Virus record (IMG/VR): IMGVR_UViG_3300036760_000240
Span: 1-20,653 of that record
Direction: 5' to 3' (one strand)
DNA length: 20,653 bases
Source: a virus
Each line of letters opens with the position of its first letter. The stretch's first letter is position 1. The notes beneath the pieces are model-generated. The model searched no databases. It was given only the letters and a program-made list of their open reading frames with translations, and was not told where the DNA came from. Shown piece by piece: positions 7,642 through 20,042 of this stretch. Position numbers and translations under genes: made by a program.

Positions 7642-7686
7642 AATAAGGATTTATTTATTTTCGGTTAGGGCTCACCTCAATCTATG

Positions 7687-7715
7687 GGAACTTTTTAGCC
7701 GCTGGACTCGTCTAA
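7687..7715 (+). promoter_or_regulatory. ECF-type promoter, rightward, for a short transcript
   Basis: GGAACTTTTT and CGTCTAA with 17 bases between GGAAC and CGTCTAA. It is divergent from the structural-unit promoter, with 45 bases between the two -35 elements. No recognisable gene follows; transcription would meet the terminator at 7896-7919 after roughly 200 bases. Confidence 0.7.
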
Positions 7716-7721
7716 ACGGGA

Positions 7722-7919
7722 GTGCAGTGTTAACGGAACGGACGTGACGCCAGAAGTCTGCCCCGAGAACCTCGTGACCGGGGTTGAAATGGCTCAAAGT
7801 CACGAAATGTTGTACACGAGCGACGCTTGAATCAGCCCTGAGTCAATAGTCCTCGGGGCCATTGGACGCGGTAACTGGTATAGAATGAGCACTTTAGGCC
7901 CCGCAGGGGCCTTTTCTTT
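7722..7919 (+). ncRNA. Candidate small RNA or micro-ORF transcript (about 200 nt)
   Basis: Bounded by an ECF-type promoter and a strong intrinsic terminator, so a discrete short RNA is expected. The only reading frame seen is GTG 7744 to TGA 7830, 28 residues (MTPEVCPENLVTGVEM...), with no good ribosome binding site. The RNA has internal pairing potential (CCCCG at about 7761 with CGGGG at about 7779). It could be a regulatory RNA or a leader that is normally terminated. Transcription is inferred, not shown. Confidence 0.4.
7896..7919 (+). terminator. Rho-independent terminator
   Basis: AGGCCCC-GCA-GGGGCCT, a perfect 7-bp G+C-rich stem with a 3-base loop, followed by TTTCTTTT. The T-run is only on the right, so it acts on rightward transcription. 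Confidence 0.85.
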
Positions 7920-8135
7920 TGTCCCAGTGAATGTTGTACAAAAGTCTAACAGCCCTCCCGGGTCTACTTCAAGCGTCGTCCAGTGGCTTTTTGTACAACA
8001 GCGGGCTCCGCTCGGGGCTTTCGCCCCTCGTCTCGCCCGGCAAATGGCTGTTGTACACCGTTTTGCCCAGTGGTCCTCGTTGCCACTGGTAACGATAACC
8101 ATTAGATAAGGAAGGACTTAGGGTCCAATGGGTGT

Positions 8136-8588
8136 TCAAACTTGGTGCTTCTTCAGGTATTTGACTGCCGCGAGCATGTTTTCCACCGAATCGTTGAATC
8201 CACCGAGTCCCGTATTGCAACCCCCACAGAGTAACTGGCGTACTTTGTTCGTCTTATGACAGTGGTCCACTTCAGGAAATCTCTCACTAGAGCCACAAAT
8301 TGCACATTTATTTCCCTGAGTGACCAACATCAACTCAAAATCAGCGGGGGCCAAGTTGTATTCGTCCCGTAGTCGCTTCATTCGGTTGCGCTCCGCAAGT
8401 AGCTTCTTCCGCTCGGGGGGCAAACTCAGGTAGTACAACTTTTGAGCCGCCCTCGCGCACCCAATGCACTCATCTTTGTACCCATCGGGAGTCTTTTTGT
8501 TTTTGTTGAAATTGACCAAACCCCTATCCTGCTTGCATTTATAGCAGTATTTCAACCGCACACCATCCGTATTCGTGATAATTGCCAT
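8136..8588 (-). CDS. HNH endonuclease, endonuclease VII-like (copy 4)
   Basis: A 150-residue endonuclease VII-like protein. N-terminal knuckle C15/C18 and C41/C44; core zinc cysteines C95/C98 and C121/C124; catalytic D108-H109 and N125. The ATG at 8588 has GGAGG 5 bases upstream and an ECF-type promoter ending 15 bases before it. Unlike the other three copies, which are wedged between structural genes and share their transcripts, this one stands alone in the control region with its own promoter. The other family members match it most strongly around the DH-x-H and LLC-G-x-C-N-x-GLG segments. Probably a free-standing homing endonuclease. Confidence 0.85.
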   Translation of the reverse strand: MAIITNTDGVRLKYCYKCKQDRGLVNFNKNKKTPDGYKDECIGCARAAQKLYYLSLPPERKKLLAERNRMKRLRDEYNLAPADFELMLVTQGNKCAICGSSERFPEVDHCHKTNKVRQLLCGGCNTGLGGFNDSVENMLAAVKYLKKHQV

Positions 8589-8603
8589 ATCGCCTCCAGA
8601 AGA

Positions 8604-8632
8604 TTAGACGAGTATTCCCCCTAAAAAGTTCC
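8604..8632 (-). promoter_or_regulatory. ECF-type promoter for HNH copy 4
   Basis: On the minus strand GGAACTTTTTAG then CGTCTAA, 17 bases apart. The -10 element ends 15 bases before the ATG of the HNH gene. It shows that the mobile endonuclease carries, or has landed behind, the same promoter class as the phage genes. Confidence 0.75.
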
Positions 8633-9189
8633 CTAAAGCGGGGGACTAATGTGAAAAGTTGCCAAAAAATAGCGACCTGCATTGAACCGTATCATGCCAC
8701 CGGGGCTAGCTCGGGGGGATACCCCCGGCCGGGTCCATTGGTTGCTCGTCGTGTACACCCGGGGAGTATGGGGGTGGGGACCATTGGTTGCTCGTTGCTC
8801 GTTGTGTACAACGCGATAGCCACGGACGAAGTGGGTAGGCAGCTAGGCAGCGGTGGACTGCCAAGGGGCCATTGGAGCGTGTACAACGGGGGCACCAAGT
8901 CCAGTGGCACTCAAAGAAATAGTTTTGACTCTTCAAAAAATAGCTTCGAGGGCCAATAACTTGAGTCAATGGCACTCAGGTCCAGTGGCTCCGGGGTCCA
9001 ATGGCCCCGGGTGGGACTGGCCCCTCAAGGTCACTGGGGGCGCTAGGGCGTGCGCTGCACGGTTTAGGCGGGTAGGCCCCTCGCTCGTGACCGTTTGCCC
9101 CGGGTGAGCGATTCGTGTAAAACTTACACTGGCGTGGTCCATTGGCCCTCGTAGCCCGGGTCCGCGACTACTAATAAGGATAGAGGCCC
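8633..9189. other. Non-coding G-rich control region
   Basis: No convincing gene. The open frames here are low-complexity products of the G-rich sequence. It holds three TGTACA and seven CCANTGG motifs, a direct repeat of CCATTGGTTGCTCGT (8735 and 8781; in the second copy TTGCTCG is duplicated in tandem), and an inverted repeat GTGTAA-AAC-TTACAC at 9115-9129. It lies between the leftward and rightward gene sets and is a candidate for a replication origin or control locus, without direct proof. Confidence 0.4.
8735..8812 (+). repeat. Direct repeat CCATTGGTTGCTCGT...TGTACA
   Basis: Two copies of a unit joining the CCATTGG and TGTACA motifs: CCATTGGTTGCTCGT then CGTGTACAC at 8735-8758, and the same 15 bases at 8781 followed by an extra TGCTCGT and TGTGTACAAC to 8812. 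The second copy has a 7-base tandem duplication. The pairing of both motifs in one unit suggests they act together. Confidence 0.6.
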
Positions 9190-9348
9190 TTGTGCTCTCG
9201 GCACGCCGCAGGCTATCGCACCGTCAGTGAACGGCGCGGCGTCAGTGTCCTGCGTCTCAAGGACGCCAAAGAGCTTGTGACGGTGCAGCCCGATGGCACC
9301 GTGGGCCCGGGAACCTTTTCTGTGGTACACTCGTCTAACCAGTCATGA
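9190..9348 (+). CDS. Possible small gene (52 aa), weak start
   Basis: An open frame from TTG 9190 to TGA 9348 encodes about 52 residues, including RRGVSVLRLKDAKELVTVQP, with the G/C-rich third positions of the neighbouring genes. Its stop overlaps the ATG of the next gene (ATGA), a typical phage junction. Against it: no ATG or GTG start near the beginning, a poor ribosome binding site, and the next gene's promoter lies inside it. It may be the 3' remnant of a longer gene. Confidence 0.35.
   Translation: MCSRHAAGYRTVSERRGVSVLRLKDAKELVTVQPDGTVGPGTFSVVHSSNQS
9310..9338 (+). promoter_or_regulatory. ECF-type promoter, first of the rightward unit
   Basis: GGAACCTTTT and CGTCTAA, 17 bases apart. 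The -10 ends only 6 bases before the ATG at 9345 and there is no ribosome binding site between, so the mRNA is probably leaderless. GGTACA, one base from the TGTACA motif, sits just before the -10. Confidence 0.75.
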
Positions 9349-9518
9349 CCACGAAGCAAACGGCCACTCAGATAGATCGCTACATCGCGCAGATACGGCG
9401 CAATGCGAGCACGCGCGTCCACCCATCGAACTATCAGGCGCTTGAGCGCTTGAGCCATCAGGCTGGCGTCGAACTGCGCCGAATCGCCCGGAAGGCAGCT
9501 GCTGCACGCGGGTGGTAG
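9345..9518 (+). CDS. Small basic hypothetical protein (57 aa)
   Basis: A 57-residue protein starting MTTKQTATQIDRYIAQIRRN, Arg/Lys/Ala-rich and helical, with a basic C-terminus (RRIARKAAAARGW). No family recognised. It is the first gene of the rightward unit; the ATG is 6 bases after the promoter -10 and has no Shine-Dalgarno sequence, so initiation on a leaderless mRNA is likely. A small, basic, helical product fits a nucleic-acid-binding or host-takeover protein, but this is inference. Confidence 0.65.
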   Translation: MTTKQTATQIDRYIAQIRRNASTRVHPSNYQALERLSHQAGVELRRIARKAAAARGW

Positions 9519-9565
9519 TGGCCGCACGCGGGCGTATGCTCAGGGCCACTGGCCCGGGGGACCCA

Positions 9566-9928
9566 ATGGACATCGCACGTTTCATCATCGACGCCCGCGT
9601 CAGCGGTGGATTGACTCGGGACCTTTTTGGCCGGTCACCTCTGGCGGGCTTCATGGTCTCGGCACACAAGGGCTTTGAACTACAGCGCCCGGTGTTGACC
9701 GATACGAACGTGCGCGAATGGTTGACGCGGGCGTGGCCCGTGTTGAACGTCCCCGGGCGCTACGTCGGGGCGTGGTTTGACAAGGCTGTGGGCACGTGGT
9801 TCCTTGACATTGCAACGAACGTGCCCAACGAACAGGACGCAATTGCCCTTGCCCGTGAGCACGGCCAATTGGCCTACTGGAACATCGCAAAGGCCGAATC
9901 CGTCTATCTTTCCGAGGTAACACCGTGA
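9566..9928 (+). CDS. Hypothetical phage protein (120 aa)
   Basis: A 120-residue protein from the ATG in CCCAATGG, with a GGGGG run as probable ribosome binding site. The C-terminal half, from GRYVGAWFDKAVGTWFLDI through AIALAREHGQLAYWNI, has the layout of small uncharacterised proteins common in tailed phages (G-x-W-x2-D, G-T-W-F-L-D, A-x-A-R-x-x-G-Q). The function of those is unknown. The upstream extension of the frame is a shadow. The start codon lies within a CCANTGG motif. The stop overlaps the next gene's GTG. Confidence 0.75.
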   Translation: MDIARFIIDARVSGGLTRDLFGRSPLAGFMVSAHKGFELQRPVLTDTNVREWLTRAWPVLNVPGRYVGAWFDKAVGTWFLDIATNVPNEQDAIALAREHGQLAYWNIAKAESVYLSEVTP

Positions 9929-10098
9929 CACAAGTTGAGTTCTTTTCCGATGGCCAGTCACACCGCGTAGTGGTCACAGACCGCGACCTTGACGGTTACG
10001 TGGCCCACTGCCGCAAGGCGGGCGCTACGCTCATTCGTCTGCGCGAATACGCCGCAGACAGACGTGAGGCCGTTGGTATCGCGTGGCTTGCTCGCTAG
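9925..10098 (+). CDS. Small hypothetical protein (57 aa)
   Basis: A 57-residue protein, MTQVEFFSDGQSHRVVVTDR..., starting with GTG that overlaps the previous stop (GTGA), so translation is probably coupled. It has a short beta-rich N-terminus and a basic helical C-terminus. No family recognised. The next promoter starts 5 bases after its stop. Confidence 0.65.
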   Translation: MTQVEFFSDGQSHRVVVTDRDLDGYVAHCRKAGATLIRLREYAADRREAVGIAWLAR

Positions 10099-10103
10099 GC
10101 GGT

Positions 10104-10131
10104 GGAACTTTTTCCCGTTGTACACGTCTAA
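10104..10131 (+). promoter_or_regulatory. ECF-type promoter with embedded TGTACA
   Basis: GGAACTTTTT and CGTCTAA, 16 bases apart. TGTACA (10119-10124) directly abuts the -10, where a bound protein would block RNA polymerase. The next ATG is 15 bases beyond, preceded by TGAGG. Confidence 0.75.
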
Positions 10132-10146
10132 CCTACTGAGGTTAAC

Positions 10147-10347
10147 ATGACGCGCAAAGATTACGTAGTGCTCGCACAAGTGCTGAAGGATGCAAAGCCG
10201 GGAACCGGGCCGGGACTTTCCGAGGTCGAGTATCAGGCCCAAGTCTCACAGTGGCAGTGGACCGCGAGTCTTTTGGCCGTGGCCTTGCAGCGTGACAATC
10301 CCCGGTTCAACCGCGACACGTTCAACGCGGCTGCGGGGGTGGCGTAA
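10147..10347 (+). CDS. Small hypothetical protein (66 aa)
   Basis: A 66-residue helical protein, MTRKDYVVLAQVLKDAKPG...; GAGG lies 6 bases before the ATG. The end, LAVALQRDNPRFNRDTFNAA, strongly resembles the short phage proteins that recur with the pattern (I/V)A..L...NPRF....F..A; their role is unknown. The stop overlaps the next start (TAATG). Confidence 0.7.
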   Translation: MTRKDYVVLAQVLKDAKPGTGPGLSEVEYQAQVSQWQWTASLLAVALQRDNPRFNRDTFNAAAGVA

Positions 10348-10697
10348 TGGCCAGCTTTCCCGTGGCCTACGGCGACATGCGCCCGGAGGGCAACCACGAC
10401 GCACACAGACCAGAGCGCCTCGCGGGCTTGTGGTTCCGCGAGCCCGTCAAGGACGGACCCCGCGTCGATGTCGATGGCTACGGCCTGAGAGACGGCGGTT
10501 ACGCGGTCTTCATGCACGTCGTAGCAGGTGGACGCCACAGCTATCATTTCGTGCGGCGGGTTCCGACCTTCAAGGGTCTGGAGCGTGTCATCGGCCGATT
10601 CGGCACATTGGTGCAGGCCAACACCGTCACATGGCGAACCGACTACACGGCACCGGCTATCTATCGGGACCTTGTGCCCGACTACCGGGGCGATTGA
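10347..10697 (+). CDS. Hypothetical protein (116 aa)
   Basis: A 116-residue protein, MASFPVAYGDMRPEGNHDAH.... The start overlaps the preceding stop. The centre (GYAVFMHVVAGGRHSYHF) is beta-rich with several His and aromatic residues. No family recognised. Its stop codon overlaps the -35 element of the following promoter, showing how tightly the unit is packed. Confidence 0.65.
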   Translation: MASFPVAYGDMRPEGNHDAHRPERLAGLWFREPVKDGPRVDVDGYGLRDGGYAVFMHVVAGGRHSYHFVRRVPTFKGLERVIGRFGTLVQANTVTWRTDYTAPAIYRDLVPDYRGD

Positions 10698-10723
10698 ACA
10701 AACGCCCAAGGGCAAACGTCTAA
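10695..10723 (+). promoter_or_regulatory. ECF-type promoter (TGAAC variant)
   Basis: TGAAC replaces GGAAC, shared with the stop codon of the gene before; CGTCTAA follows after 17 bases. The next ATG is 16 bases downstream with GAGGG as ribosome binding site. Confidence 0.65.
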
Positions 10724-10739
10724 CCAATCTGAGGGACCA

Positions 10740-10949
10740 ATGGCCAAACGCGCAGACGTAAACGTGTTCGATGACGGTGGTTCGATGGTTCTCTTGCGCA
10801 CGGTGACACGCCGCGCTTGCCAGTGGGCACGGCTGCACCTGCCAGAAGACGCTCCCATGTTGGGCACGTGCTATGCCATCGACCGCCGTTACGTGGGAGA
10901 CATCGTGGACGGCATGAAAGCCGAGGGCCTGACCCTGTGGCTATCATGA
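10740..10949 (+). CDS. Small hypothetical protein (69 aa)
   Basis: A 69-residue protein, MAKRADVNVFDDGGSMVLLR..., with GAGGG before the ATG. A short beta-rich N-terminus is followed by RRACQWARLHLPEDA and a helical end. No family recognised. Its stop overlaps the next start (ATGA). The start codon lies in a CCAATGG motif. Confidence 0.7.
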   Translation: MAKRADVNVFDDGGSMVLLRTVTRRACQWARLHLPEDAPMLGTCYAIDRRYVGDIVDGMKAEGLTLWLS

Positions 10950-11212
10950 GACCACAGCCACCACAGGCCGAGTATGCCCAGTCTAGCGAGCCCATTGCAT
11001 CGGCACGCTATCGCAAGCTCCAGAAGACCGGAGACTGGGGTATCGCGGGCGAGATGGTTGTGCCCGGGGTGCAGCCGCACGAGGGCATGCTCTGCGTTGT
11101 CGAAAAGCGCAGCGGGCAGTGTGACCTTGTGACCGTGGCCAGCATCATTTGGGCCGATGGCGCGGGCAACTTTTCGGCAACGGTGGCCATGCGCCAGAAG
11201 GACATTGCATAG
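10946..11212 (+). CDS. Hypothetical protein (88 aa)
   Basis: An 88-residue protein, MRPQPPQAEYAQSSEPIASA..., whose start overlaps the preceding stop by 4 bases. The body from about residue 22 (YRKLQKTGDWGIAGEMVVPG to NFSATVAMRQKDIA) is beta-rich, with an alternating pattern that suggests a small barrel. No family recognised. The open frame extends upstream of this ATG, but there it overlaps the previous gene. Confidence 0.65.
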   Translation: MRPQPPQAEYAQSSEPIASARYRKLQKTGDWGIAGEMVVPGVQPHEGMLCVVEKRSGQCDLVTVASIIWADGAGNFSATVAMRQKDIA

Positions 11213-11217
11213 GCGGC

Positions 11218-11246
11218 GGAACTTTTGTACAAGCTCCAACGTCTAA
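11218..11246 (+). promoter_or_regulatory. ECF-type promoter with embedded TGTACA
   Basis: GGAACTTTTG and CGTCTAA, 17 bases apart, with TGTACA (11226-11231) between the two. The next ATG is 16 bases downstream and has GAGG. Confidence 0.75.
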
Positions 11247-11262
11247 CAGTCCGAGGTATCCA

Positions 11263-11646
11263 ATGAGCGAACACGAAAACGAACTTCAGTCCTGTGTCAT
11301 CATCGTGCCCCGTGGCACCCGGGTGAAACCGACGCATGACACCGCGTTCATCACGACGGTGGAAGTGCAGACCGAGGGTGTGCTGGCCCCGGTGCGCACA
11401 CAGACCAATCGGCACCTGTTGGCCTACTGCCACAATGCCGCATGCGTCAAGGACCAGCGCGAACAGAATAACGGCAAAATCCACGGCCTGCGCGGGCATG
11501 GCAAGGGCTGGACCGAGTGGCCCCTGCCGACGTGCAGCCGATGCGGCACACAGTGGACGTGGGCCGGTGAGGGCGAAGGCGTCAAGGGCATCTTCGAGCC
11601 AAGCGAAGCGGGCGAGCAGGGCGAACCCAAGGAAGAGGGGGTGTAG
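11263..11646 (+). CDS. Putative zinc-binding hypothetical protein (127 aa)
   Basis: A 127-residue protein starting MSEHENELQSCVIIVPRG. Two cysteine groups, YCHNAAC (about residues 56-62) and CSRCG (about 93-97), could bind a zinc ion; the segment between has a conserved-looking WTEWPLPTCSRCGTQWTW. The C-terminal 25 residues are Glu/Gly-rich and probably disordered. No family recognised with confidence. A small zinc-ribbon phage protein is the likeliest description. Confidence 0.65.
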   Translation: MSEHENELQSCVIIVPRGTRVKPTHDTAFITTVEVQTEGVLAPVRTQTNRHLLAYCHNAACVKDQREQNNGKIHGLRGHGKGWTEWPLPTCSRCGTQWTWAGEGEGVKGIFEPSEAGEQGEPKEEGV

Positions 11647-11647
11647 A

Positions 11648-11857
11648 GTGGCCTTCATACTCATACTCCTGTTCACGCTCGTCGTCATCGTGCCAGTGTT
11701 CAACGTGGTAGTTGGGCTATTCGTCGCCTGCTGGGAAGGTGAATCGGAAGCTGACCGTATCGCCAAGATGCCCACCGACACGATGGAGCAATTGAAAGCC
11801 TACCAAGCCGCCCGTCGCGCGCATGAGTGCCGTCTGCATCAGGAACTTTCTCAGTAA
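11648..11857 (+). CDS. Small single-pass membrane protein
   Basis: A 69-residue protein from GTG 11648, one base after the preceding stop; GAGGGGGTGTAGA upstream holds the ribosome binding site. Residues 2-27 are strongly hydrophobic (AFILILLFTLVVIVPVFNVV), a membrane segment or uncleaved signal anchor, followed by a charged helical tail that would face one side of the membrane. Function unknown. The -35 of the next promoter is inside its last codons. Confidence 0.65.
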   Translation: MAFILILLFTLVVIVPVFNVVVGLFVACWEGESEADRIAKMPTDTMEQLKAYQAARRAHECRLHQELSQ

Positions 11858-11870
11858 CCCCAACGTCTAA
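11842..11870 (+). promoter_or_regulatory. ECF-type promoter for the CobS-like ATPase
   Basis: GGAACTTTC and CGTCTAA, 17 bases apart. The -35 is inside the end of the membrane-protein gene. The next ATG is 19 bases downstream, with GGAG. Confidence 0.75.
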
Positions 11871-11889
11871 CTGTTTGGAGACACGAGAC

Positions 11890-13038
11890 ATGGACGGGAC
11901 GAAACTCACGGTGGAAGAACTTGTCAAGGGGTGCGTGGCACTCGGCTACGAGGAATCGTGGGCCAAGCGCATGCCAACGGCCTACCTGCGCCGGGTGGTG
12001 ACCGAGGGCAAGCGGAAGGGTGAGGGCGAAGTGCCCAAGATGCCCCCCAAGGTCGAGCCCAAGGACGACCGCCCCCGGGTCGAGGTCACCGTCGATGACG
12101 AAGTGGCCGCGAGGCTCGCAGACAAGGTGGCACCGGCCGTGCAGACCCTCATCGAGCCCGGCCTACTGCGCAAGGCCGAGGCCCTCAGTGCCCTTGTCAC
12201 CAAGAACGTCATCGAACAGTGGGCCAAAGAGAACATCCTTGTGATTCCCGCCAAGAACGGTGGCGAACCCAAGACCGAAAACCTCGGATTCCTGCACGAG
12301 GCGTGGCAGGATGCGTGGGCCAACGTCGAGGCCGATATCCCGGTGTATGTCCACGGGCCAGCCGGGTCAGGCAAAACGACTGCCGCTGCGCAATTGGCCA
12401 AAGCAATGGGCGCAAGCCTTGGCCGCGATGACTACCAGTCACACATGCAGTCATTCTGCGCGGCAACCCAATTGCACGAATTGATTGGGTTTATCGACGC
12501 CAGCGGACGCTACCATCCTACGGAGTTCCGCAAGGCATGGGAACAGGGCGGATTGTGGCTCGGTGACGAGGCCGATGCAGCGCCGGAACTGACGGTCTAC
12601 CTGAACGCCGCACTGGCGAACAATGTCTGTGTCTTTCCCGACAAGACGCTGAAGCGCCACCCGGACACCCGCATTGTGACAGCGGGCAACACCACGGGCC
12701 TTGGGGCCACGGCCGAATACACTTCGCGCCAGCGTCAGGACGCAGCCACGTTGGACCGATTCGCCTTCGTGCCGTGGGGCTACGACGAAAAGCTCGAACT
12801 GATGGCCGCAGGGGTGGACCAGACCAAGTGGGTCAAGCATGTGCAGGCCCTGCGCAAGGCCCTGAAGACCTTGGGCCAGTCGGCACCGGATATCCGCATC
12901 ACTCCCCGGGCGAGTATCTACGGCGCGACACGACTGCGCCAGAAGCCCGAGACCAAGTTCGAGACACTCGAACAGCAGTTCATCTGGAAGGGCGCGAGCG
13001 ACGACGACATCATGAAGGTCAGGCGCGCAGTCAAGTAA
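11890..13038 (+). CDS. CobS/MoxR-like AAA+ ATPase
   Basis: A 382-residue AAA+ ATPase. Residues 1-130 are a lysine- and proline-rich lead-in and helices; the ATPase core has Walker A GPAGSGKT (156-163), Walker B LWLGDEAD (222-229), sensor 1 in TAGNT (264-268), an arginine-finger candidate in TLDRF (287-291) and a sensor 2-like TPRA near 352. The arrangement is that of CobS and MoxR ATPases, which remodel partner proteins, often VWA-domain or chelatase subunits. The N-terminus resembles the short helical domain found in phage CobS-like proteins. Its own promoter precedes it; the next gene, with a terminator-like hairpin between, is a likely partner. A true cobalt chelatase role is unlikely in a phage. 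The real substrate is unknown. Confidence 0.88.
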   Translation: MDGTKLTVEELVKGCVALGYEESWAKRMPTAYLRRVVTEGKRKGEGEVPKMPPKVEPKDDRPRVEVTVDDEVAARLADKVAPAVQTLIEPGLLRKAEALSALVTKNVIEQWAKENILVIPAKNGGEPKTENLGFLHEAWQDAWANVEADIPVYVHGPAGSGKTTAAAQLAKAMGASLGRDDYQSHMQSFCAATQLHELIGFIDASGRYHPTEFRKAWEQGGLWLGDEADAAPELTVYLNAALANNVCVFPDKTLKRHPDTRIVTAGNTTGLGATAEYTSRQRQDAATLDRFAFVPWGYDEKLELMAAGVDQTKWVKHVQALRKALKTLGQSAPDIRITPRASIYGATRLRQKPETKFETLEQQFIWKGASDDDIMKVRRAVK

Positions 13039-13047
13039 CACAACGGG

Positions 13048-13067
13048 CCGGGGGAACTTTCCCCCGG
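13048..13067 (+). promoter_or_regulatory. Hairpin overlapping a promoter -35
   Basis: CCGGGGG-AACTTT-CCCCCGG, a perfect 7-bp stem with a 6-base loop directly after the ATPase gene. The GGAAC -35 of the next promoter lies at its tip. It may attenuate read-through and start a new transcript at once. The following T-run is weak (TCTTTC), so termination is uncertain. Confidence 0.5.
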
Positions 13068-13081
13068 TCTTTCACGTCCAA
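13053..13081 (+). promoter_or_regulatory. ECF-type promoter (CGTCCAA variant)
   Basis: GGAACTTTC and CGTCCAA, 17 bases apart, one mismatch in the -10. The ATG at 13088 is 6 bases after the -10 with no ribosome binding site, so a leaderless mRNA is expected. Confidence 0.7.
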
Positions 13082-13087
13082 CACAAC

Positions 13088-14146
13088 ATGGCACTCAACA
13101 GACTGCAAACCAGCGCCGACATCTTGCGCGAGGCCATCACAACGAACAAGGCCACGAACGATGTCATCATCCGGTGTGGTCCGGACACCCGGGACATCGA
13201 GGCGTTTGGCAAGAACACGGCCATCACGTGGAAGTCCGAGCGAGCGAGCCATCGGACAGAGCGTAGCGGGTGGGCCGGGTCTCCGAGTTACGAGCAGGCG
13301 GTGGAGTGGCTGCGGTATGGCTGGCCTGAAGGCACGGCACAGGCGGCGAAGCTCGCAGCCAAGCTGGCAGTCAAGCTGCCTCATGGTTTGAAGGTCAAAA
13401 CCCGCTACCGCCCGTCAGTCGCGCCCGTGGGCTCGACCGTGGTCAACGTCCCGGCCGTCGTGCAGGGCACGCCGTGCGGATTCATTGGGAACTTCAAGAC
13501 CCATCAGCGCGTCGAGGGCCACAGAATCCTTCGGGTAGCCGTCAACGTCACAACGTCATCGGCCATCGAGCCCGAAACCATCATGAATCGTGGAGCGGCG
13601 ATTATGGCCCTCATGACGACGCTGGAACGCATGCGCATGACTATCGACCTAACGACGTTCTTCTGTGTGCGGGGGAACGTGCCGCAGTATGGCGGGGGCG
13701 GTGGTGGGCTTTTCGGCCAGTACTACTTCGACCCGGACCCCAAGAAGATGGCTGAAGACCGCCGTAAGCGTGCGGAGTGGGCCAAGCAATACGCCGGGTT
13801 CAAGCCGACACATGCTCTGTGCCTGTGGAACTGCAAGCCAGCGGGCATGAGCACCAATCCGGACCAGATTGCTTTCGCCTTGGTCAACCCGAGCAGCCAG
13901 CGCCGTATCGCGTTTGCGCAATTGGAACACGCGCCCTTTACGCCGTCGCAGTTCTATCACGGCTACGGCTATCCGGTGCCCCTCAAGCGTGCGTATCCCG
14001 ACGAGCTCAAAAAGTTCGACATCGTGTTGGACAGCGATGCCTACGATTCCGGGCATTGGGACAGCGAGGAAACCATGCTGCGGTGGATAAAGAATCAGCT
14101 AAAGGCGCAGGGTATCAACGTCGATGATGCCAGTAGACTTGAGTAA
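13088..14146 (+). CDS. Probable ATPase partner protein, DUF7192-like
   Basis: A 352-residue protein beginning MALNRLQTSADILREAITTN. The region WAGSPSYEQAVEWLRYGWPE (about 62-81) and the downstream alpha/beta body recall phage proteins of the DUF7192 group, which I recollect as neighbours of CobS-like ATPases; this is from memory, not a search. A glycine run near residue 205 breaks the protein into two halves. The second half has alternating strands and helices, ending FDIVLDSDAYDSGHW. No metal-binding DxSxS motif of a VWA domain was found. Its place directly after the AAA+ gene suggests it is the remodelled or adaptor subunit. Translation probably starts on a leaderless mRNA. Confidence 0.7.
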   Translation: MALNRLQTSADILREAITTNKATNDVIIRCGPDTRDIEAFGKNTAITWKSERASHRTERSGWAGSPSYEQAVEWLRYGWPEGTAQAAKLAAKLAVKLPHGLKVKTRYRPSVAPVGSTVVNVPAVVQGTPCGFIGNFKTHQRVEGHRILRVAVNVTTSSAIEPETIMNRGAAIMALMTTLERMRMTIDLTTFFCVRGNVPQYGGGGGGLFGQYYFDPDPKKMAEDRRKRAEWAKQYAGFKPTHALCLWNCKPAGMSTNPDQIAFALVNPSSQRRIAFAQLEHAPFTPSQFYHGYGYPVPLKRAYPDELKKFDIVLDSDAYDSGHWDSEETMLRWIKNQLKAQGINVDDASRLE

Positions 14147-14159
14147 CCAGTGGCCCCGG

Positions 14160-14188
14160 GGAACATTTCACAGCCGGTGCGCGTCTAA
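14160..14188 (+). promoter_or_regulatory. ECF-type promoter, leaderless
   Basis: GGAACATTT and CGTCTAA, 17 bases apart, 13 bases after the previous stop. The ATG at 14195 is 6 bases from the -10 and lacks any purine-rich ribosome binding site. Confidence 0.75.
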
Positions 14189-14194
14189 CCCCAT

Positions 14195-14644
14195 ATGACC
14201 ATCGAGCAGACGCTACTGACCGTCGTCAAGGTGCCCAAGCAGGGCATCGAGGTCTGGAAGGTTCGGGGCTTCAGTGGCCGCGTGGACTACGAGCAGGGCA
14301 AGTTGTTGTACACTGTGCCCGAGTTGGAGCAGTTCGATTCCGTGGAAGATGGCCAGCGTGCCGTGGCCGTGTGGCTGCACGAGGCCGGTCACACCCATCA
14401 GCGGTGGGCCAGCAACGAGCGTGATGCCTACGGCAGGAACCCGATCCCCCGCGAAGTCGAGGCGTGGCAATTCGCCATCGCATTCGCCAAGCAATTGCAC
14501 CTGCGGTGGACCGCGCCGATGCACCAGCGCCTTGTTGAGGGCTTAGAGGACTATCTCGCCCTTCAGCCAACCGAGAGCAACCATCTGCGGGTCGAGTCAG
14601 TCATTTCTTTGAGCGCTATCGAGGTCGCCACCAGTGCTCAGTAG
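14195..14644 (+). CDS. HEAGH protein, putative metallopeptidase-like
   Basis: A 149-residue protein with HEAGH at residues 62-66, the HExxH zinc-binding and catalytic motif of gluzincin/metzincin-type peptidases. A helix 21 residues on (PREVEAWQFAIAFA, about 85-98) offers a glutamate as third ligand, the arrangement seen in minimal gluzincin-like domains where the ligand sits in an ExxA.. helix. It is short for an active protease and could act only on a small partner or be a zinc-binding relic. It follows the CobS-like and DUF7192-like genes, each with its own promoter, so the three may be co-regulated. Probably translated from a leaderless mRNA. Confidence 0.7.
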   Translation: MTIEQTLLTVVKVPKQGIEVWKVRGFSGRVDYEQGKLLYTVPELEQFDSVEDGQRAVAVWLHEAGHTHQRWASNERDAYGRNPIPREVEAWQFAIAFAKQLHLRWTAPMHQRLVEGLEDYLALQPTESNHLRVESVISLSAIEVATSAQ

Positions 14645-14658
14645 CACCCGCAAGTGGT

Positions 14659-14687
14659 GGAACCTTCCCCGGGCCAGTAGCGTCTAA
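14659..14687 (+). promoter_or_regulatory. ECF-type promoter, probably leaderless
   Basis: GGAACCTTC and CGTCTAA, 17 bases apart. The ATG at 14696 is 8 bases from the -10. A GAGG is present but only 4 bases before the ATG and at or before the likely transcription start. Confidence 0.75.
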
Positions 14688-14695
14688 GAGGTTAT

Positions 14696-14896
14696 ATGAG
14701 TTTGCGCACTCGACGCTACGCCTACGTGCTTGCCTACTTCAACGTGGACGGCTACTTGTCGTTCCATTCGACCAAGGTAGTAGCCCGAGGTCAGACCGAG
14801 GCTTACGACAAGGGCCACAAGTGGGCAGTCAGGCGCAAGCTGCTTCCGTTGACGGGCGGGAACAAATACGGCAACGACTACGTAATTGCTATCTAG
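14696..14896 (+). CDS. Small basic hypothetical protein (66 aa)
   Basis: A 66-residue basic protein, MSLRTRRYAYVLAYFNVDGY..., with alternating beta-like residues and a GGNKYGNDYVIAI end. No family recognised. Its promoter places the ATG almost at the transcription start. Nine bases of spacer with AGGAG separate it from the next gene. Confidence 0.65.
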   Translation: MSLRTRRYAYVLAYFNVDGYLSFHSTKVVARGQTEAYDKGHKWAVRRKLLPLTGGNKYGNDYVIAI

Positions 14897-14904
14897 GAGA
14901 ACAC

Positions 14905-15084
14905 ATGGACAAGCTCAAAGAAGCGCTCAGAACGATGCAGGCGGAAATCTCCGGTCTCTTGGCTGTCGCGGACCCGGGCTCGCACAAGGCGGCGATTGCC
15001 GCGGACCTGATGGCCTGTGTGCAGTTGATTGCGCAGCAGACCAAGAAGCTCGAAAAGCTCGACCAGTTGGACGCGGACAAGTAG
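14905..15084 (+). CDS. Small helical hypothetical protein (59 aa)
   Basis: A 59-residue protein, MDKLKEALRTMQAEISGLLA..., with AGGAG 6 bases before the ATG. Almost entirely helical, with heptad-like hydrophobic spacing at the end (LIAQQTKKLEKLDQLD), so a short coiled coil and oligomerisation are likely. No family recognised. Confidence 0.7.
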   Translation: MDKLKEALRTMQAEISGLLAVADPGSHKAAIAADLMACVQLIAQQTKKLEKLDQLDADK

Positions 15085-15262
15085 CCCGTGGTGAACTTTC
15101 TGGCCGGAATCATCGAGTCAGCGCCAGTCGAGCAGTAACCAGTAGACCCCATAGCAGTTGGTGTACACACGCGGAAGGTTGTACACTGACCACGCGATGA
15201 CCGGGGCCACAGCGGTGGAACATTTCACCGCTGTGTTACGTCTAATGGGTGGGAGGCGTCCA
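15085..15262. other. Spacer with a possible micro-ORF and TGTACA pair
   Basis: No firm gene. GTG 15091 to TAA 15138 would encode 15 residues (MNFLAGIIESAPVEQ), without clear support. Two TGTACA motifs lie close together at 15162 and 15180, upstream of the next promoter. A hairpin AGCGGTG-GAACATTT-CACCGCT (15211-15232) carries the -35 of that promoter in its loop. Confidence 0.45.
15217..15245 (+). promoter_or_regulatory. ECF-type promoter inside a hairpin
   Basis: GGAACATTT and CGTCTAA, 17 bases apart. The -35 lies within a perfect 7-bp inverted repeat (15211-15232). Two TGTACA palindromes sit 30-55 bases upstream. It decides the start of the next gene: the ATG at 15245 overlaps the -10 and cannot be used. 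Confidence 0.75.
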
Positions 15263-15469
15263 GTGGCTCAGAATCTCGTGCTCAGAACCTTCGTCCTTGT
15301 AGGTCCGTCAGTGGCCGTTGAAGCCGTGGTGGAAGAGCTACGTGCGCAGGCGAGTGAGTTCCAAGACGTAACAGGTGAGCAGCCCCCCGTGATGGTCTAC
15401 GAGCAGACCCGGGTGGGCGTGGACTCCGTGATTCGTGCCGACGTGTACAAATTGAACCGCTTGGCCTAG
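15263..15469 (+). CDS. Small hypothetical protein (68 aa)
   Basis: A 68-residue protein, starting at GTG 15263 with GGGAGG 6 bases upstream; earlier in-frame starts lie in or before the promoter. The pattern LRTFVLVGPSVAVEAVVEEL, then a helix and a strand-rich end (VGVDSVIRADVYKL), suggests a small alpha/beta fold. No family recognised. The start codon is within a CCAGTGG motif. Confidence 0.65.
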   Translation: MAQNLVLRTFVLVGPSVAVEAVVEELRAQASEFQDVTGEQPPVMVYEQTRVGVDSVIRADVYKLNRLA

Positions 15470-15471
15470 CG

Positions 15472-15500
15472 GGAACCTTTCAGCCTCCAGTCGCGTCTAA
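15472..15500 (+). promoter_or_regulatory. ECF-type promoter
   Basis: GGAACCTTTC and CGTCTAA, 17 bases apart, 2 bases after the previous stop. The ATG at 15517 is 16 bases downstream with GGAG. Confidence 0.75.
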
Positions 15501-15516
15501 CCCTTTGGAGCGTGAC

Positions 15517-15663
15517 ATGGACAAGCCAACCGGGTATTCGGTGCAGACGCGAGTGGGCCACGTAGTGGTGGTGCAGAACGAGTTCCTCGCACGGGAAATC
15601 GCCCGCCGCGAAGGCACGGCGCAGATTCTCCGACTGAGCGACAACAGTTTCATCGAGGTCTAA
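15517..15663 (+). CDS. Small hypothetical protein (48 aa)
   Basis: A 48-residue protein, MDKPTGYSVQTRVGHVVVVQ..., with GGAG about 6 bases before the ATG. Beta-rich first half, helical second half. No family recognised. It is the first gene after its promoter and probably shares the transcript with the acidic protein that starts 4 bases after its stop. Confidence 0.65.
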   Translation: MDKPTGYSVQTRVGHVVVVQNEFLAREIARREGTAQILRLSDNSFIEV

Positions 15664-15667
15664 CACG

Positions 15668-16513
15668 GTGGACATCACGAAGCTCAAGAACCTCCGGCCG
15701 GTCCTGCACGATGAGGACATCAGCGAGCTAACGCTTCAAAGGGCTATGGGTCGCTTTGCAGAGTTAGGTGGCACTGGGGCCACAGCAGAGATGAAGCGCG
15801 AAGTCATCAACGCCGTGATGCTGTTCAACGAGGAACATCAGCAGCTTCACGACGGGCTCGAAGGCAGTGGGGGCGAGGCTGAGGGAGAACCAGATGGCGA
15901 ACTCGAAATTGAGCTTCAGCCTGACCCCCAAGGCGACATCGAAGCCCCCCAAGGTGCTCCGCGTCCCGGTGATGGCGAGCCCGGTGACTCAGGTGAGACC
16001 GGCAACAAGCCGGGAGATACGCCCGGCAGTGGCGAGGGCGATGAAGAGGGCTCGGAAGACGGCGAAGAGCCTTCAGAGCAGGACCAGAAGGACGCGCAAG
16101 ACATGTTGAGCAAAGACGAAGCCCGCGAGCAGTACAACGACGAGCAGCCCAGCGAGGAAGACATCCAGAAGGCCCTCGAAGACTTCCGCCAGAAGCAGCA
16201 CGAGAAGGCCCAACAGAATGGGCTTGAGAAGCAGCGTCAGCAGAAGCGTGACAACGAGCAGCAGGGTGGTGAACAGCAGGAGCAGGACCCACAGGAACCG
16301 CCGCCTCCACCGTTCGACCGGGGCGAGGTCGTCTTCTTGGACGAGAACATCGAGTGGCCCTATTTGGTCATCAAGGTGGACGACTTGAAGGCCGTAATGG
16401 CAGCAGTGCGCAACGGCGAAATCACGGAGTACGATACGCTGTCTGTCCGATTGGGTGACGAGCAGCCCGGGGGTATCACGTGGGCACCGACCAAGCGCCT
16501 GAAGAAATCCTGA
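15668..16513 (+). CDS. Acidic, low-complexity protein (281 aa)
   Basis: A 281-residue protein from GTG 15668, with GAGG 9 bases upstream inside the previous gene. Residues 1-60 are helical; about 65-215 are strongly acidic, rich in Gly, Glu, Asp, Pro and Gln and probably disordered, turning into a Lys/Gln-rich helix and a run of prolines; 216-281 are a compact strand-helix domain (VVFLDENIEWPYLVIKVDDL). The acidic linker recalls that of CobT, partner of CobS, but the CobT VWA domain is absent. Given the CobS-like gene upstream, a partner or decoy role is possible but unproven. DNA mimicry or scaffolding are alternatives. No family identified. Confidence 0.7.
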   Translation: MDITKLKNLRPVLHDEDISELTLQRAMGRFAELGGTGATAEMKREVINAVMLFNEEHQQLHDGLEGSGGEAEGEPDGELEIELQPDPQGDIEAPQGAPRPGDGEPGDSGETGNKPGDTPGSGEGDEEGSEDGEEPSEQDQKDAQDMLSKDEAREQYNDEQPSEEDIQKALEDFRQKQHEKAQQNGLEKQRQQKRDNEQQGGEQQEQDPQEPPPPPFDRGEVVFLDENIEWPYLVIKVDDLKAVMAAVRNGEITEYDTLSVRLGDEQPGGITWAPTKRLKKS

Positions 16514-16689
16514 CACCTGCGGTGGACCAGTCTACCGGAGTCTCTAAGCTCGACGTGGCGCGAGAAGCGCCCGAAGATGCAGTGTGTGTACACTGCAAAC
16601 GCACGAAAGAGTACCACGGCAAGATGGGATTCAGTTGCCTCCCGCCGTTGTACACAATGTTCTTGGCAACGAAGGAGCCAGTGTCATGA
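16480..16689 (+). CDS. Small hypothetical protein with CxxC
   Basis: A 69-residue protein. The start taken is GTG 16480, with a GGGGG run 6 bases upstream, overlapping the acidic gene by 34 bases; GTG 16522 after that gene's stop is the alternative. CVHCKRTKEYHGKMGFSC holds a CxxC, a His and a later Cys that could bind one zinc. Its stop overlaps the next ATG (ATGA). Confidence 0.6.
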   Translation: MGTDQAPEEILTPAVDQSTGVSKLDVAREAPEDAVCVHCKRTKEYHGKMGFSCLPPLYTMFLATKEPVS

Positions 16690-16883
16690 AGTTTCTGTTG
16701 GGTCTCGGTCTCGTTGGATTGCTCATCCTCAGCGTCGTGCTGGTGTTCATTGGCCCCATCCTGTCGATTTGGGCGGTCAACACGCTGTTCGGTCTCGCCA
16801 TTCCGTTTACGGTGAAGACGTGGTTCGCGGCGTTCGTGCTTGGGCTCGTGGTGCGTCCCTCGGTCACCGTGAAGAAGGACTAG
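16686..16883 (+). CDS. Small two-pass membrane protein (65 aa)
   Basis: A 65-residue protein, mostly hydrophobic: one membrane segment at about 3-30 (a very hydrophobic LLILSVVLVFIGPIL core) and another at about 38-56, ending in a basic tail (VKKD). The start overlaps the previous stop. Holin-like topology is conceivable, but no lysis genes were identified nearby; function unknown. Confidence 0.65.
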   Translation: MKFLLGLGLVGLLILSVVLVFIGPILSIWAVNTLFGLAIPFTVKTWFAAFVLGLVVRPSVTVKKD

Positions 16884-16886
16884 TCG

Positions 16887-17168
16887 GTGTTCACACCGGC
16901 CGACTACATCATCGTGGCGCTCTTGCTCCTGTGCCTACGTAACGGGATGCCGGAGAAGCGCATCGCGCAGATTGCCAAGCGCATGCACGCCGAGGGATAC
17001 TTGGAGCAGCACAACACCGGTGCCCGGAAGCTGCCCGACGACGACGTGCAGTCGTTGGTCATGACGCGCAACATGACCTATCTGATGCAGGCGTGGCATA
17101 GGCTGGTGGACCCCCTTCTAGTGGGTGGCGCTATCTGGCTGTTGTACATGTCGCACTTCTGGCAGTAG
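16887..17168 (+). CDS. Small membrane-associated protein (93 aa)
   Basis: A 93-residue protein from GTG 16887, three bases after the previous stop. A hydrophobic segment lies at about 7-17 (IIVALLLLCLR) and another at the C-terminus (PLLVGGAIWLLYMSHF, 76-91), with a charged helical middle. No family recognised. It forms a small cluster of membrane proteins with the preceding gene, which together could act at the envelope during lysis or exclusion. Confidence 0.6.
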   Translation: MFTPADYIIVALLLLCLRNGMPEKRIAQIAKRMHAEGYLEQHNTGARKLPDDDVQSLVMTRNMTYLMQAWHRLVDPLLVGGAIWLLYMSHFWQ

Positions 17169-17197
17169 GGAACAAAGAGACGAGCAGGTTCGTCTAA
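17169..17197 (+). promoter_or_regulatory. ECF-type promoter with a long leader
   Basis: GGAACAAAG and CGTCTAA, 17 bases apart, starting immediately after the previous stop. The next well-supported start is 124 bases after the -10, against 6-19 for nearly every other copy. The leader may hold regulation or an unnoticed small gene; a GTG at 17226 in the same frame is possible. Confidence 0.7.
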
Positions 17198-17321
17198 TCA
17201 AGGCAGTGGTGACAGCGGGTCCTCGGTGAGTGGCCGTAGGATACAAAGAAGAAGTCCCCCGGCGACCCCTATATGCGGTTTCCGAGGCGTCCACCCCCTC
17301 TCACTCTTTAGGAGCTTTGGC

Positions 17322-17696
17322 ATGCGCGAGTGGCATATCGGCAAGGACGTAAGCTCCAGTGGCATCGCAGCGATTGCGTCGGTGTTCAAGTTGGGTGCAG
17401 GCGATGTCGTGCCGACCGAAGACACCAACCTCATCCTGACCGACCACGGCATGCAGAAGCTGATGGCCCGACCAGCCGGTGTGGGGCTCGTGACTACGCT
17501 GGCCCACATGCCCAAGCGTGAACTGGCCGAGGCATGGGTCGCGTTCAACCCGGAGCGTAAGTTCCGCGATGCCAGTGGATGCAACCAGACACAGATATTG
17601 GCCGCAGCCGCCTTTGAGACGGTGATGGCCAGATTTATCAAGTTCGAGTGTGAAGCCGGTCAGCCCATCCCGGGAACCGAAAGCGACGACGAGTAG
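17322..17696 (+). CDS. Hypothetical protein (124 aa)
   Basis: A 124-residue protein starting MREWHIGKDVSSSGIAAIAS, with AGGAG 7 bases upstream, which decides the ATG over an in-frame GTG at 17226. The helical C-terminal half (NQTQILAAAAFETVMARFIK) ends in an acidic tail. No family recognised. It is followed 8 bases later by the 189-residue gene and probably shares its transcript. Confidence 0.65.
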   Translation: MREWHIGKDVSSSGIAAIASVFKLGAGDVVPTEDTNLILTDHGMQKLMARPAGVGLVTTLAHMPKRELAEAWVAFNPERKFRDASGCNQTQILAAAAFETVMARFIKFECEAGQPIPGTESDDE

Positions 17697-17704
17697 GAGA
17701 CAGC

Positions 17705-18274
17705 ATGAGCAACGAGAAGTATCTCGACCAGATGGAGAGCAAGTTCTACCAGCGTGAGTCACTGAAGGCGGGGCCGCGTATCACGAACGAACTGTTGGAC
17801 ATCGGCCTCAAGTCTCATGACCCCATCGCGGCCATTGGCCTGTTCGATGCCTTCGTCATCCTCATGACGGCCAACGGTGTCTCGCCCGACGACATCAGGG
17901 AGTTCGTCGGCTCGAAGGACGTGAACGCACGCATCAGCCTCATCGCGGCGGTGTCCAACGGCGACCGTTTCGCAGCCGACATCCTTGCGAAGGGTCTCGG
18001 CATGGACAGACAGTCCGAGCAGCAGGGGCGTTCGGCGGGTGGTCCTGCCATTCTCCAGTTGCTGGCGCAGATGTCTGCGGCTCAGTCCCGTCAGGACCTG
18101 ACCCCGGCCGGTCTCGGCGCACTCATCGGCGGGACCATCCCGCTTGGTGCCGGTCTGCGTCCGCAGCCGCTCCGCTCCACCGCGCACGCGCCGACGTGCC
18201 AGCCCGATGGCGACGGCGGTGCCACCTTCGCGGAAACCCTCGACAGGGACGCCTACGAGACGAACGTCGAGTAA
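17705..18274 (+). CDS. Hypothetical protein (189 aa)
   Basis: A 189-residue protein, MSNEKYLDQMESKFYQRESL..., with TAGGAGAC before the ATG. The first 110 residues look helical and folded; the rest is Gly/Pro/Ala-rich and probably flexible, with an acidic end. No family recognised. Its stop abuts the broken HNH gene (TAAGTG). Confidence 0.65.
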   Translation: MSNEKYLDQMESKFYQRESLKAGPRITNELLDIGLKSHDPIAAIGLFDAFVILMTANGVSPDDIREFVGSKDVNARISLIAAVSNGDRFAADILAKGLGMDRQSEQQGRSAGGPAILQLLAQMSAAQSRQDLTPAGLGALIGGTIPLGAGLRPQPLRSTAHAPTCQPDGDGGATFAETLDRDAYETNVE

Positions 18275-18679
18275 GTGCAAAAGAGAATGGGGCGACCGTG
18301 GACTGACCTGAAAGGGTTGGTCTTCGGCCGTTTCAAAGTCCTACGCAGAGTCAAAGGATATACACGGCCTTCAAAATGGCATTGTAGGTGTCTTGGCTGT
18401 GGGTGTAGACGCATTGTCATTCACCAGAATCTGAAGAAGAACAAACACGGCTGTCTTCAATGTCTTTGGAAATGGCAGAAGACAGCACCCGTACGTGGGG
18501 CGAAGCACCCCATGTGGAGGGGAGGGAAGACAAAAACTAGTGACGGATATGTTCTAATCTATCTACCGGGCCATCCGAAGAATCTTGAATTGTTTGTACA
18601 TCACCCATTTGGGCAGCGTCCACGAGATTTATTGCGGTGGGCGGAAACAATCAGGAGACGGTATGGCAGAGGAGCATAA
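18275..18679 (+). pseudogene. HNH endonuclease with the catalytic core deleted
   Basis: An intact frame of 134 residues from GTG 18275. The first 110 residues match the start of a common phage HNH group: DLKGLVFGRFKVLRRV, a Cys-rich zinc knuckle (C37/C39/C42/C44, C60/C63), then HPMWRGGKTKTSDGYVLIYL. Full proteins continue with an HRxxxE-type helix and the HH-x-N-G core before NLELW and GQR-x-x-D. Here PGHP is joined directly to KNLELFVHHPFGQRPRDLL, so roughly 35-45 residues, including the nuclease site, seem to be missing in frame at about 18574-18581. It overlaps the following ATPase gene by 17 bases. It may keep DNA binding but not cutting. Confidence 0.7.
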
Positions 18680-19598
18680 ACAGAAAAACCCGTTTACCTT
18701 TGTCAGGGGTGACCTCTACTTGAGGTTGCCTCGGGACCCGCAGCCGTGGCTTGTACACAAATTGGTCCCCTCCGGTGGTGTGATGGCGATTGGTGGAGCA
18801 CCAAAAACGGGTAAGTCCTTCACAGCCCTTGGGATGGCCGTTGCAATTGCCAATCCGAAAATTGCTACGTTTTGGGACCAGCCAGTTGTCAAACACGGGC
18901 CGGTGCTCTACTTACAGGTGGATACGCCACGTGAAGAGTGGGCGGGGCGTATTGACCGCATTCGGCAGCTTGGTATCGATGACGTGTACTGGACCGATGC
19001 AAATCTGGTCCCGTATCCGTTGACAGTCACAGACCCGGCCATCAAGTTCCATCTGCACGAGAAGATTAAGGAACTGAAGCCGGTAATGGTCGTGATAGAT
19101 ACGCTGCGCGAAGTACACAACGAAGACGAGAACGACGCTACGGCAATGAAGCAAGTCATTCAGGGCTTGGTCGAAGTGACTAAGGGAACCGGAACGACAC
19201 TTCTGTTGGTGGCGCACACAAGGAAAGAGGGCCAGAAGAAAAGGGGCGAGCAATACGATGATGACCCCATTGGGGACCTTCGTGGCTCGAACTACATTGC
19301 GGGCCGGTGTGACGTGGTGAGCAAGCAGACCGCAGACCGGCGATTCGTGTGTGTGGGGCGCTCAATCGGCGGGAAGACGTTCTACCTTGAACAGGAGCCC
19401 GCGACCCTGTTGTGGAAGTTGAGAGACCGCAGTCAGGAGATTGCAGCGGCCCTGAAGTACGTGATGACGGCCCCCGAACTGATGGACAAAGGCGGCGATG
19501 AACAAAAGACCTTCGCCAACCGCTTGTCTATGCTTATGGCTCAGACCGGAATTGAAGAAGCCCGATGTCGTGAGTTGATTGCAGGCTGGAATGGTTAG
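18663..19598 (+). CDS. RepA-like RecA-fold ATPase (AAA_25)
   Basis: A 311-residue protein with Walker A GGAPKTGKS (44-52), Walker B VMVVIDT (141-147), and the following LLLVAHTRKE (180-189) motif of RecA-fold hexameric ATPases. This is the AAA_25/RepA group: plasmid and phage replicative helicases or helicase-like ATPases. The start is ATG 18663 (MAEEHKQKNPFT) with AGGAG 7 bases upstream; the longer frame lies in the broken HNH gene. No primase, polymerase or DnaB-type helicase is in the window, so it is the main replication candidate, either unwinding or loading at the origin. Codon use in the first third is less G+C-rich than in the small genes upstream. Confidence 0.85.
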   Translation: MAEEHKQKNPFTFVRGDLYLRLPRDPQPWLVHKLVPSGGVMAIGGAPKTGKSFTALGMAVAIANPKIATFWDQPVVKHGPVLYLQVDTPREEWAGRIDRIRQLGIDDVYWTDANLVPYPLTVTDPAIKFHLHEKIKELKPVMVVIDTLREVHNEDENDATAMKQVIQGLVEVTKGTGTTLLLVAHTRKEGQKKRGEQYDDDPIGDLRGSNYIAGRCDVVSKQTADRRFVCVGRSIGGKTFYLEQEPATLLWKLRDRSQEIAAALKYVMTAPELMDKGGDEQKTFANRLSMLMAQTGIEEARCRELIAGWNG

Positions 19599-19627
19599 GG
19601 AACAAATATCGCAGGAGAAACGTCTAA
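19599..19627 (+). promoter_or_regulatory. ECF-type promoter
   Basis: GGAACAAAT and CGTCTAA, 17 bases apart. GGAAC begins just after the ATPase stop codon. The next ATG is 16 bases downstream with GAGGGGAG. Confidence 0.75.
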
Positions 19628-19643
19628 AGCGAGGGGAGTAGTG

Positions 19644-20042
19644 ATGAACGCCAACCGAATCGACAAGACCGGGAAATGGCTCGTCTTCATTCTTGTGCTG
19701 TGGTTTCTGTTCACCCTGACCACGCGGGCCGAAGCACAGATGACCACGGGGGACAAGATTCAGTCAGTAACATTCGCCGCGCTACAGGCGGCAGACTTTC
19801 GCACCACGCGGGTTGTCGTGGGGCGTAACGGGGGCACCGAAAGCAACGCAGCAATGCGAGGCATTGTAGGGCATCCCGTTCCTTTCGCAGTGGTCAAGGG
19901 CTCAGTGGCCCTGAGTGCGACCCTCGTGCTCAGGCACTTGAGGCCCAAGCACCCCAAGCTCGCACAGTGGGCATGGGTGGGATTGAACCTTGGACAGGGT
20001 TTCGTCGTCTATCATAACTGGAGGCAAGTGTGCAAAAAGTGA
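19644..20042 (+). CDS. Exported or membrane protein, DUF5658-like
   Basis: A 132-residue protein from ATG 19644, 5 bases after GGGGAG; a GTG one codon earlier is too close to that site. Residues 11-28 are a hydrophobic signal segment (WLVFILVLWFLFTLTT) with a possible cleavage site after AEA. The rest, with LQAADFRTT, GGTESN, and two membrane-like stretches at about 82-95 and 110-122, recalls the DUF5658 group of small integral membrane proteins (D-x-x-T ... GG-x-E-x-N), from memory. The role of that family is not known. The stop overlaps the next gene. Confidence 0.7.
   Translation: MNANRIDKTGKWLVFILVLWFLFTLTTRAEAQMTTGDKIQSVTFAALQAADFRTTRVVVGRNGGTESNAAMRGIVGHPVPFAVVKGSVALSATLVLRHLRPKHPKLAQWAWVGLNLGQGFVVYHNWRQVCKK

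Follow-up and report, generated by a model that had tools for sequence, protein, structure and literature searches.

NorQ and NorD constitute a MoxR AAA+/VWA couple (ATPases associated with diverse cellular activities, paired with a von Willebrand factor A domain protein) for metal insertion into nitric oxide reductase. In NorD, a pore 'finger' (residues 403-448) lies ahead of the residues T534 and D562 of the metal ion-dependent adhesion site (MIDAS) (PMC13036017, PMC9976466). In viruses, the AAA+ pairs of the halovirus Hardycor1 and of phage 0305phi8-36 have been proposed as chaperones (PMC7911831, PMC2147016), and a 2021 study by Liu and colleagues proposed that viral CobST hijacks the host CobN (PMC8651126). 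Here we analyzed a virus record of 20,653 nucleotides (IMG/VR record IMGVR_UViG_3300036760_000240, hereafter the window), on whose plus strand a gene for a CobS/midasin-like AAA+ ATPase of 382 amino acids (positions 11890..13038) is followed by a gene for a 352-amino-acid DUF7192 protein (13088..14146). We estimate the probability at about 80% that these proteins work together as the two components of a single remodelling machine, powered by ATP and of the MoxR AAA+/VWA type.

Starting from the ATPase, 88 loci including the window were gathered, mostly from IMG/VR. DUF7192 was encoded beside the ATPase on the same strand in 86 of them, with a median gap of 44 bp and 78 pairs lying within 300 bp; in the other two loci the contig stopped directly after the ATPase gene. 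The gene order varied, DUF7192 being located downstream in 59 loci and upstream in 27, which points to selection acting on the pair and not to a single frozen operon. A search outward from one clade of DUF7192 gave 58 loci, all 58 with the ATPase gene alongside; some of their contigs also belonged to the ATPase-derived set. Other families near the ATPase recurred in at most 14 of the 88 loci. Furthermore, the distances of the ATPase and DUF7192 proteins correlated with r = 0.81 (77 loci), as compared to a largest value of 0.15 in 1000 permutations. For the Kayviruses, 236 Staphylococcus records were obtained for the ATPase gene and 236 for the DUF7192 gene, and the pair also occurs in Listeria P100, Acinetobacter Herod, Mycobacterium Krypton555, Rhizobium P106B, Tunturiibacter Tunturi_4 and Gordonia Octobien14. 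The AAA+ and DUF7192 genes are a conserved two-gene unit whose pairing is near-obligate across very different phages. An earlier note on this DNA had named independent occurrence of the genes in other phages as evidence against a partnership; for these two genes this was checked, and the counts given above left the pairing standing.

In genome contigs, no match was obtained with the single ATPase protein of the window; the ATPase alignment retrieved 33 loci. A four-sequence DUF7192 alignment used as first query was too diverged. Methylomonas loci (L197/L198) with a distant ATPase and no DUF7192 were left out as members, and the genome loci L168, L170, L185, L194 and L196, which lacked DUF7192, were not taken as counter-examples, the ATPase residing within ~1 kb of the end of the contig or of the fetched stretch. 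In Tunturi_4, ~2.4 kb upstream of the ATPase (L002:2100-4490) are free of annotated genes and contain many short CTAGG/GTGTGTG-like repeats.

The genome collections also disclosed the pair in metagenome-assembled genomes of Mycoplasma and Malacoplasma read with genetic code 4 (loci L182, L191 and L200-L208). Nine of 95 Mycoplasmoidaceae genomes carried this DUF7192 type, in all cases with the ATPase beside it. Since their neighbors are housekeeping genes (adenylosuccinate synthetase and glycerol-3-phosphate acyltransferase at L191, Obg and NAD synthase at L182), these pairs look chromosomal and are not obviously part of prophages. The Pfam DUF7192 model missed the two mycoplasma proteins tested; profile comparison supported the placement of the mycoplasma proteins in the family with an E value of 2.2e-8.

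The ATPase matched phrog_249 (E 1.2e-41) and AAA_5 (E 2.2e-6). Its Walker A motif GPAGSGKT (residues 156-163, positions 12355..12378), located in the sequence and in the alignment of relatives, and its Walker B motif are intact. Across 74 ATPase sequences, G156, G161, K162, D226 and E227 (the latter two forming Walker B), N267, R290 and R340 were invariant; judged by their positions, N267, R290 and R340 may serve as sensor and arginine-finger residues. With these, the protein carries the Walker A, Walker B, putative sensor and putative arginine-finger residues of MoxR-type AAA+/VWA couples. By profile, its closest solved relatives were AAA domains of midasin (1.9e-45), followed by CobS (9.6e-17), a CbbQ/NirQ/NorQ-type protein (4.5e-12) and NorQ (7.6e-9). 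Compared with the CobS equivalog TIGR01650 it reached 15 bits, the cut-off being 558.55, and is thus not a member. The annotation of phrog_249 reads 'porphyrin biosynthesis', a label that is probably wrong for this motor because its constant partner DUF7192 is predicted to fold like the VWA partners of such motors.

The partner clearly belongs to DUF7192 (PF23822, E 1.7e-17; 64.1 bits versus a gathering cut-off of 27), a family of which no mention was found in the literature searched. Its sequence gave no match among PDB sequences, and therefore structure was needed. AlphaFold2 modeled the window protein (76 sequences) with a predicted local distance difference test score (pLDDT) of 79.9 and a predicted template modeling score (pTM) of 0.78, and a compact relative (91 sequences) with values of 94.8 and 0.87. 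The window model resembled the VWA domain of NorD (Z 7.9 and 7.5) and Rea1-MIDAS (Z 7.1 and 6.9), and the remaining structure matches were nearly all VWA-fold chains. The compact relative aligned with the NorD VWA domain over residues 1-260 (Foldseek E 8.1e-5, probability 1.00; Z 8.1). In the viral structure library BFVD, the next named matches after DUF7192 proteins were CobT and other VWA proteins. The ATPase is thus paired with a protein of predicted VWA fold, as in MoxR-type couples. The earlier note had described the acidic protein encoded further downstream as recalling CobT but lacking its VWA domain; judging from the models, the domain thought to be missing most likely is the DUF7192 protein itself.

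We consider it unlikely that DUF7192 partners the ATPase without being a true VWA protein, its likeness extending only to the general alpha/beta arrangement. The lack of sequence similarity to CobT, the lack of a MIDAS consensus and Z values near 8 would fit such an explanation, but two separate models both put the NorD VWA domain and Rea1-MIDAS first, the confident model of the compact relative aligned with the E value, probability and residue range given above, and, where the first VWA strand lies, the mycoplasma members have N-I-S-G-N-M or N-I-S-G-H-M, near the canonical DxSGSM of VWA domains.

The metal site of DUF7192, as judged from the alignment, is most likely largely eroded. The consensus D.[ST].[ST] was present in only 3 of 76 aligned members and the relaxed form [DN].[ST].[ST] in 8 of 76; the window protein reads NVTTS at this position. 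Since the DxSxS of the VWA partner is mostly lost, we filed ATPase-DUF7192 as a variant and not as a standard MIDAS-type member of the MoxR couples. The most conserved stretch of the family, V.G....VP..L.G.P..M (positions 13418..13489), is located just before VWA strand 1 and, by analogy, may be equivalent to the pore finger of NorD and Rea1.

Some of these data also weigh against a two-subunit machine. The correlation of distances is partly due to shared descent of the phage genomes. Z values of 7-8 are often reached by models that have no clear match, yet the top rows were nearly all VWA-fold. Profile comparison of DUF7192 with one CobT VWA sequence did not reveal sequence homology, so that its assignment to the VWA fold is based on structure prediction. 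Finally, with the MIDAS lost, the mode by which NorD binds its target may not carry over.

In the two-subunit machine, the ATPase would form a hexameric ring, on which one DUF7192 protein, a VWA-fold adaptor with a mostly lost metal site, would sit. The conserved DUF7192 loop might be pushed into the ring pore. ATP turnover would then turn or pull DUF7192 so that the bound target is remodelled, in line with the mechanism put forward for NorQ-NorD (PMC13036017, PMC9976466). Since the MIDAS is mostly lost, most members would bind their target independently of metal.

Downstream of the pair, the window encodes a zincin-like protein of 149 amino acids with the HExxH motif HEAGH (14195..14644, plus strand; assigned by the motif) and a 281-amino-acid protein with an acidic, Gln-rich low-complexity middle (15668..16513, plus strand; ORF sequence). 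Open reading frames (ORFs) and profile matches confirmed that the AAA+ gene, the 352-residue DUF7192 protein and these two ORFs, all described in the earlier note, are real. The HEAGH protein gave no match above cut-off in Pfam, PHROGs or NCBIfam and was not assigned to an HExxH metallopeptidase family. In the same databases the acidic protein matched neither CobT nor CobT_C (VWA); a VWA fold was instead predicted in DUF7192.

A machine of four parts, in which the HEAGH protein acts as protease and the acidic protein as linker together with ATPase and DUF7192, is quite improbable. It draws on the neighborhood of the genes and their common promoter class, and on SprT-like HExxH genes, which we observed ~2 kb upstream of the ATPase in a few relatives (L022, L045, L046, L063, L096) and, in Malacoplasma, two genes downstream of the pair (L191:6581-7327). 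Against it, neither IMG/VR nor the loci gathered around the pair yielded a relative of the HEAGH or the acidic protein, and HExxH and acidic proteins showed no enrichment at distances of up to 5 kb from the ATPase (11 and 7 in 769 kb versus 5 and 4 in 410 kb). In addition, many other genes lie behind the same promoter. Neither the HEAGH nor the acidic protein is conserved together with ATPase and DUF7192, and neither is a demonstrated part of the machine; they may belong to something else. Thus, the proposed partner set held for AAA+ and DUF7192, as supported by adjacency, correlated divergence and the VWA-like fold, and was not supported for the other two proteins.

The extracytoplasmic function (ECF)-like promoters are genuine. 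The motif GGAACNTT-N13/14-CGTCTAA had 11 exact matches in the window versus none in 100 shuffles, and a weight matrix built from the exact sites was scanned over the window. The AAA+ gene is preceded by an exact match, GGAACTTT-N14-CGTCTAA (11842..11870, plus strand; weight-matrix score 29.8), its ATG being located 19 nt past the -10 region with GGAG in between. On the same strand, the scan revealed a site with one mismatch (CGTCCAA) before DUF7192 (13053..13081), while exact matches that also scored in the scan precede the HEAGH gene (14160..14188) and the unit comprising a 48-amino-acid ORF (15517-15663) and the acidic gene (15472..15500). Sites were also detected before the ORFs at 14696 and 15263. 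A promoter in front of each of the four genes, as previously described, therefore applies to AAA+, HEAGH and, with the mismatch, DUF7192; the acidic gene (15668) has no site of its own and comes second in the unit starting at 15472. In three genes (9345, 13088 and 14195) the ATG resides only 6 nt past the -10 region, which suggests leaderless messages; the message of the DUF7192 gene would thus probably be leaderless.

The 20.7-kb window comprises a packaging arm on the minus strand, with a portal-like (586-2745) and a terminase-like gene (3685-5433), and a second arm on the plus strand from ~9.3 kb, which contains the AAA+, DUF7192, HEAGH and acidic genes and several small ORFs. The promoter motif spans 7614-19650 on both strands with about a dozen or more sites of fixed spacing. 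On the minus strand, the site at 8632 precedes an endonuclease VII gene, and the one at 7641 faces into the packaging arm. The motif is a general promoter class of the phage, marking neither a partner set nor an early class: since its sites precede many unrelated genes on both strands, it indicates neither partnership, as had been assumed, nor timing. Early timing read from the promoter was rejected, the same class facing both arms. A convincing sigma factor gene was not found in the fragment; there was a weak sigma/helix-turn-helix match in 6808-7563. Searching IMG/VR for the motif disclosed no close relative of the phage: five contigs, scattered and bearing one or two sites each, had nothing in common with the window but endonuclease VII-like sequences.

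Four endonuclease VII-type genes (162-710, 3048-3551, 5312-5770 and 8136-8588; PF02945, E about 1e-17 to 1e-20) lie scattered on the minus strand among the terminase and portal genes and are possibly free-standing homing endonucleases. ORF 18585-19598 is helicase/primase-like (phrog_3123, E 1.5e-21; phrog_906 DNA polymerase/primase, 6e-16).

With respect to a chelatase, loci with a true CobT (41, SSU5 type) were examined. Of these, 40 had a CobS-like ATPase and not one encoded DUF7192; conversely, the CobT VWA domain was not detected in any of the DUF7192 loci. Because they are mutually exclusive in the loci examined, DUF7192 and CobT look like alternative partners. Nothing was found here that carries the viral CobST-CobN argument (PMC8651126) over to DUF7192 pairs. 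A viral cobaltochelatase, in which the ATPase is CobS with a CobT-like partner boosting host cobalamin synthesis, would agree with the annotation of phrog_249, with CobS among the closest solved relatives and with true CobST clusters in tailed viruses (PMC8651126; SSU5), but is highly improbable given the equivalog score, the closer relationship to midasin, the lack of a CobT domain near any DUF7192-paired ATPase and of a CobT match in the acidic protein, and the pair in mycoplasma chromosomes. Mycoplasmoidaceae-type organisms are not expected to synthesize cobalamin, so their pairs argue against cobalt chelation. Of the chelatase-like or remodelling machine suggested by the earlier note, remodelling remains a good hypothesis for the pair, while a chelatase role is unlikely.

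The odds are about even that DUF7192 constitutes a class of its own among VWA adaptors, mostly without a MIDAS, that it builds a metal-independent remodelling machine together with the midasin/CobS-like ATPase dedicated to it, and that this machine is common to distant tailed phages and mycoplasma chromosomes and is regularly mistaken for a porphyrin/cobalamin auxiliary gene. By these data, a domain of unknown function gains a fold and a partner. The 'porphyrin biosynthesis' gene of many phages (Staphylococcus Kayviruses, Listeria P100-type) can be taken off lists of metabolic genes and examined as a possible remodelling motor, and the presence of the pair in cultured phages and small mycoplasma genomes makes substrate searches directly possible.

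Among known systems, Hardycor1 and the MoxR pair of 0305phi8-36 resemble our locus in that, in a tailed virus, the AAA+ gene lies next to one for a VWA protein or a second MoxR subunit; the Hardycor1 partner, however, is a recognizable vWA-MIDAS protein, whereas DUF7192 had not been recognized as one. Phage and bacterial CobS-CobT is alike in that the ATPase of our locus falls into the porphyrin-biosynthesis PHROG and the CobT VWA models follow DUF7192 in BFVD, but CobT possesses a linker and a MIDAS VWA domain and never occurred together with DUF7192 in the loci examined. In NorQ-NorD, too, a ring-type AAA+ ATPase has its VWA partner encoded next to it, and the NorD VWA domain is the best fold match of DUF7192, at full length in the compact relative. 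In contrast to DUF7192, which is a stand-alone protein of about 260-350 amino acids with a mostly lost MIDAS, NorD is a 69-70 kDa protein with an N-terminal domain, a linker and an essential MIDAS, and the phage ATPase is nearer in sequence to midasin than to NorQ. Midasin/Rea1 of eukaryotic ribosome assembly provides the closest solved AAA sequences, and in the fold comparison Rea1-MIDAS ranks directly behind NorD; yet there several AAA domains and their own MIDAS domain are united in one giant chain, while the phage divides ATPase and partner between two small separate genes.

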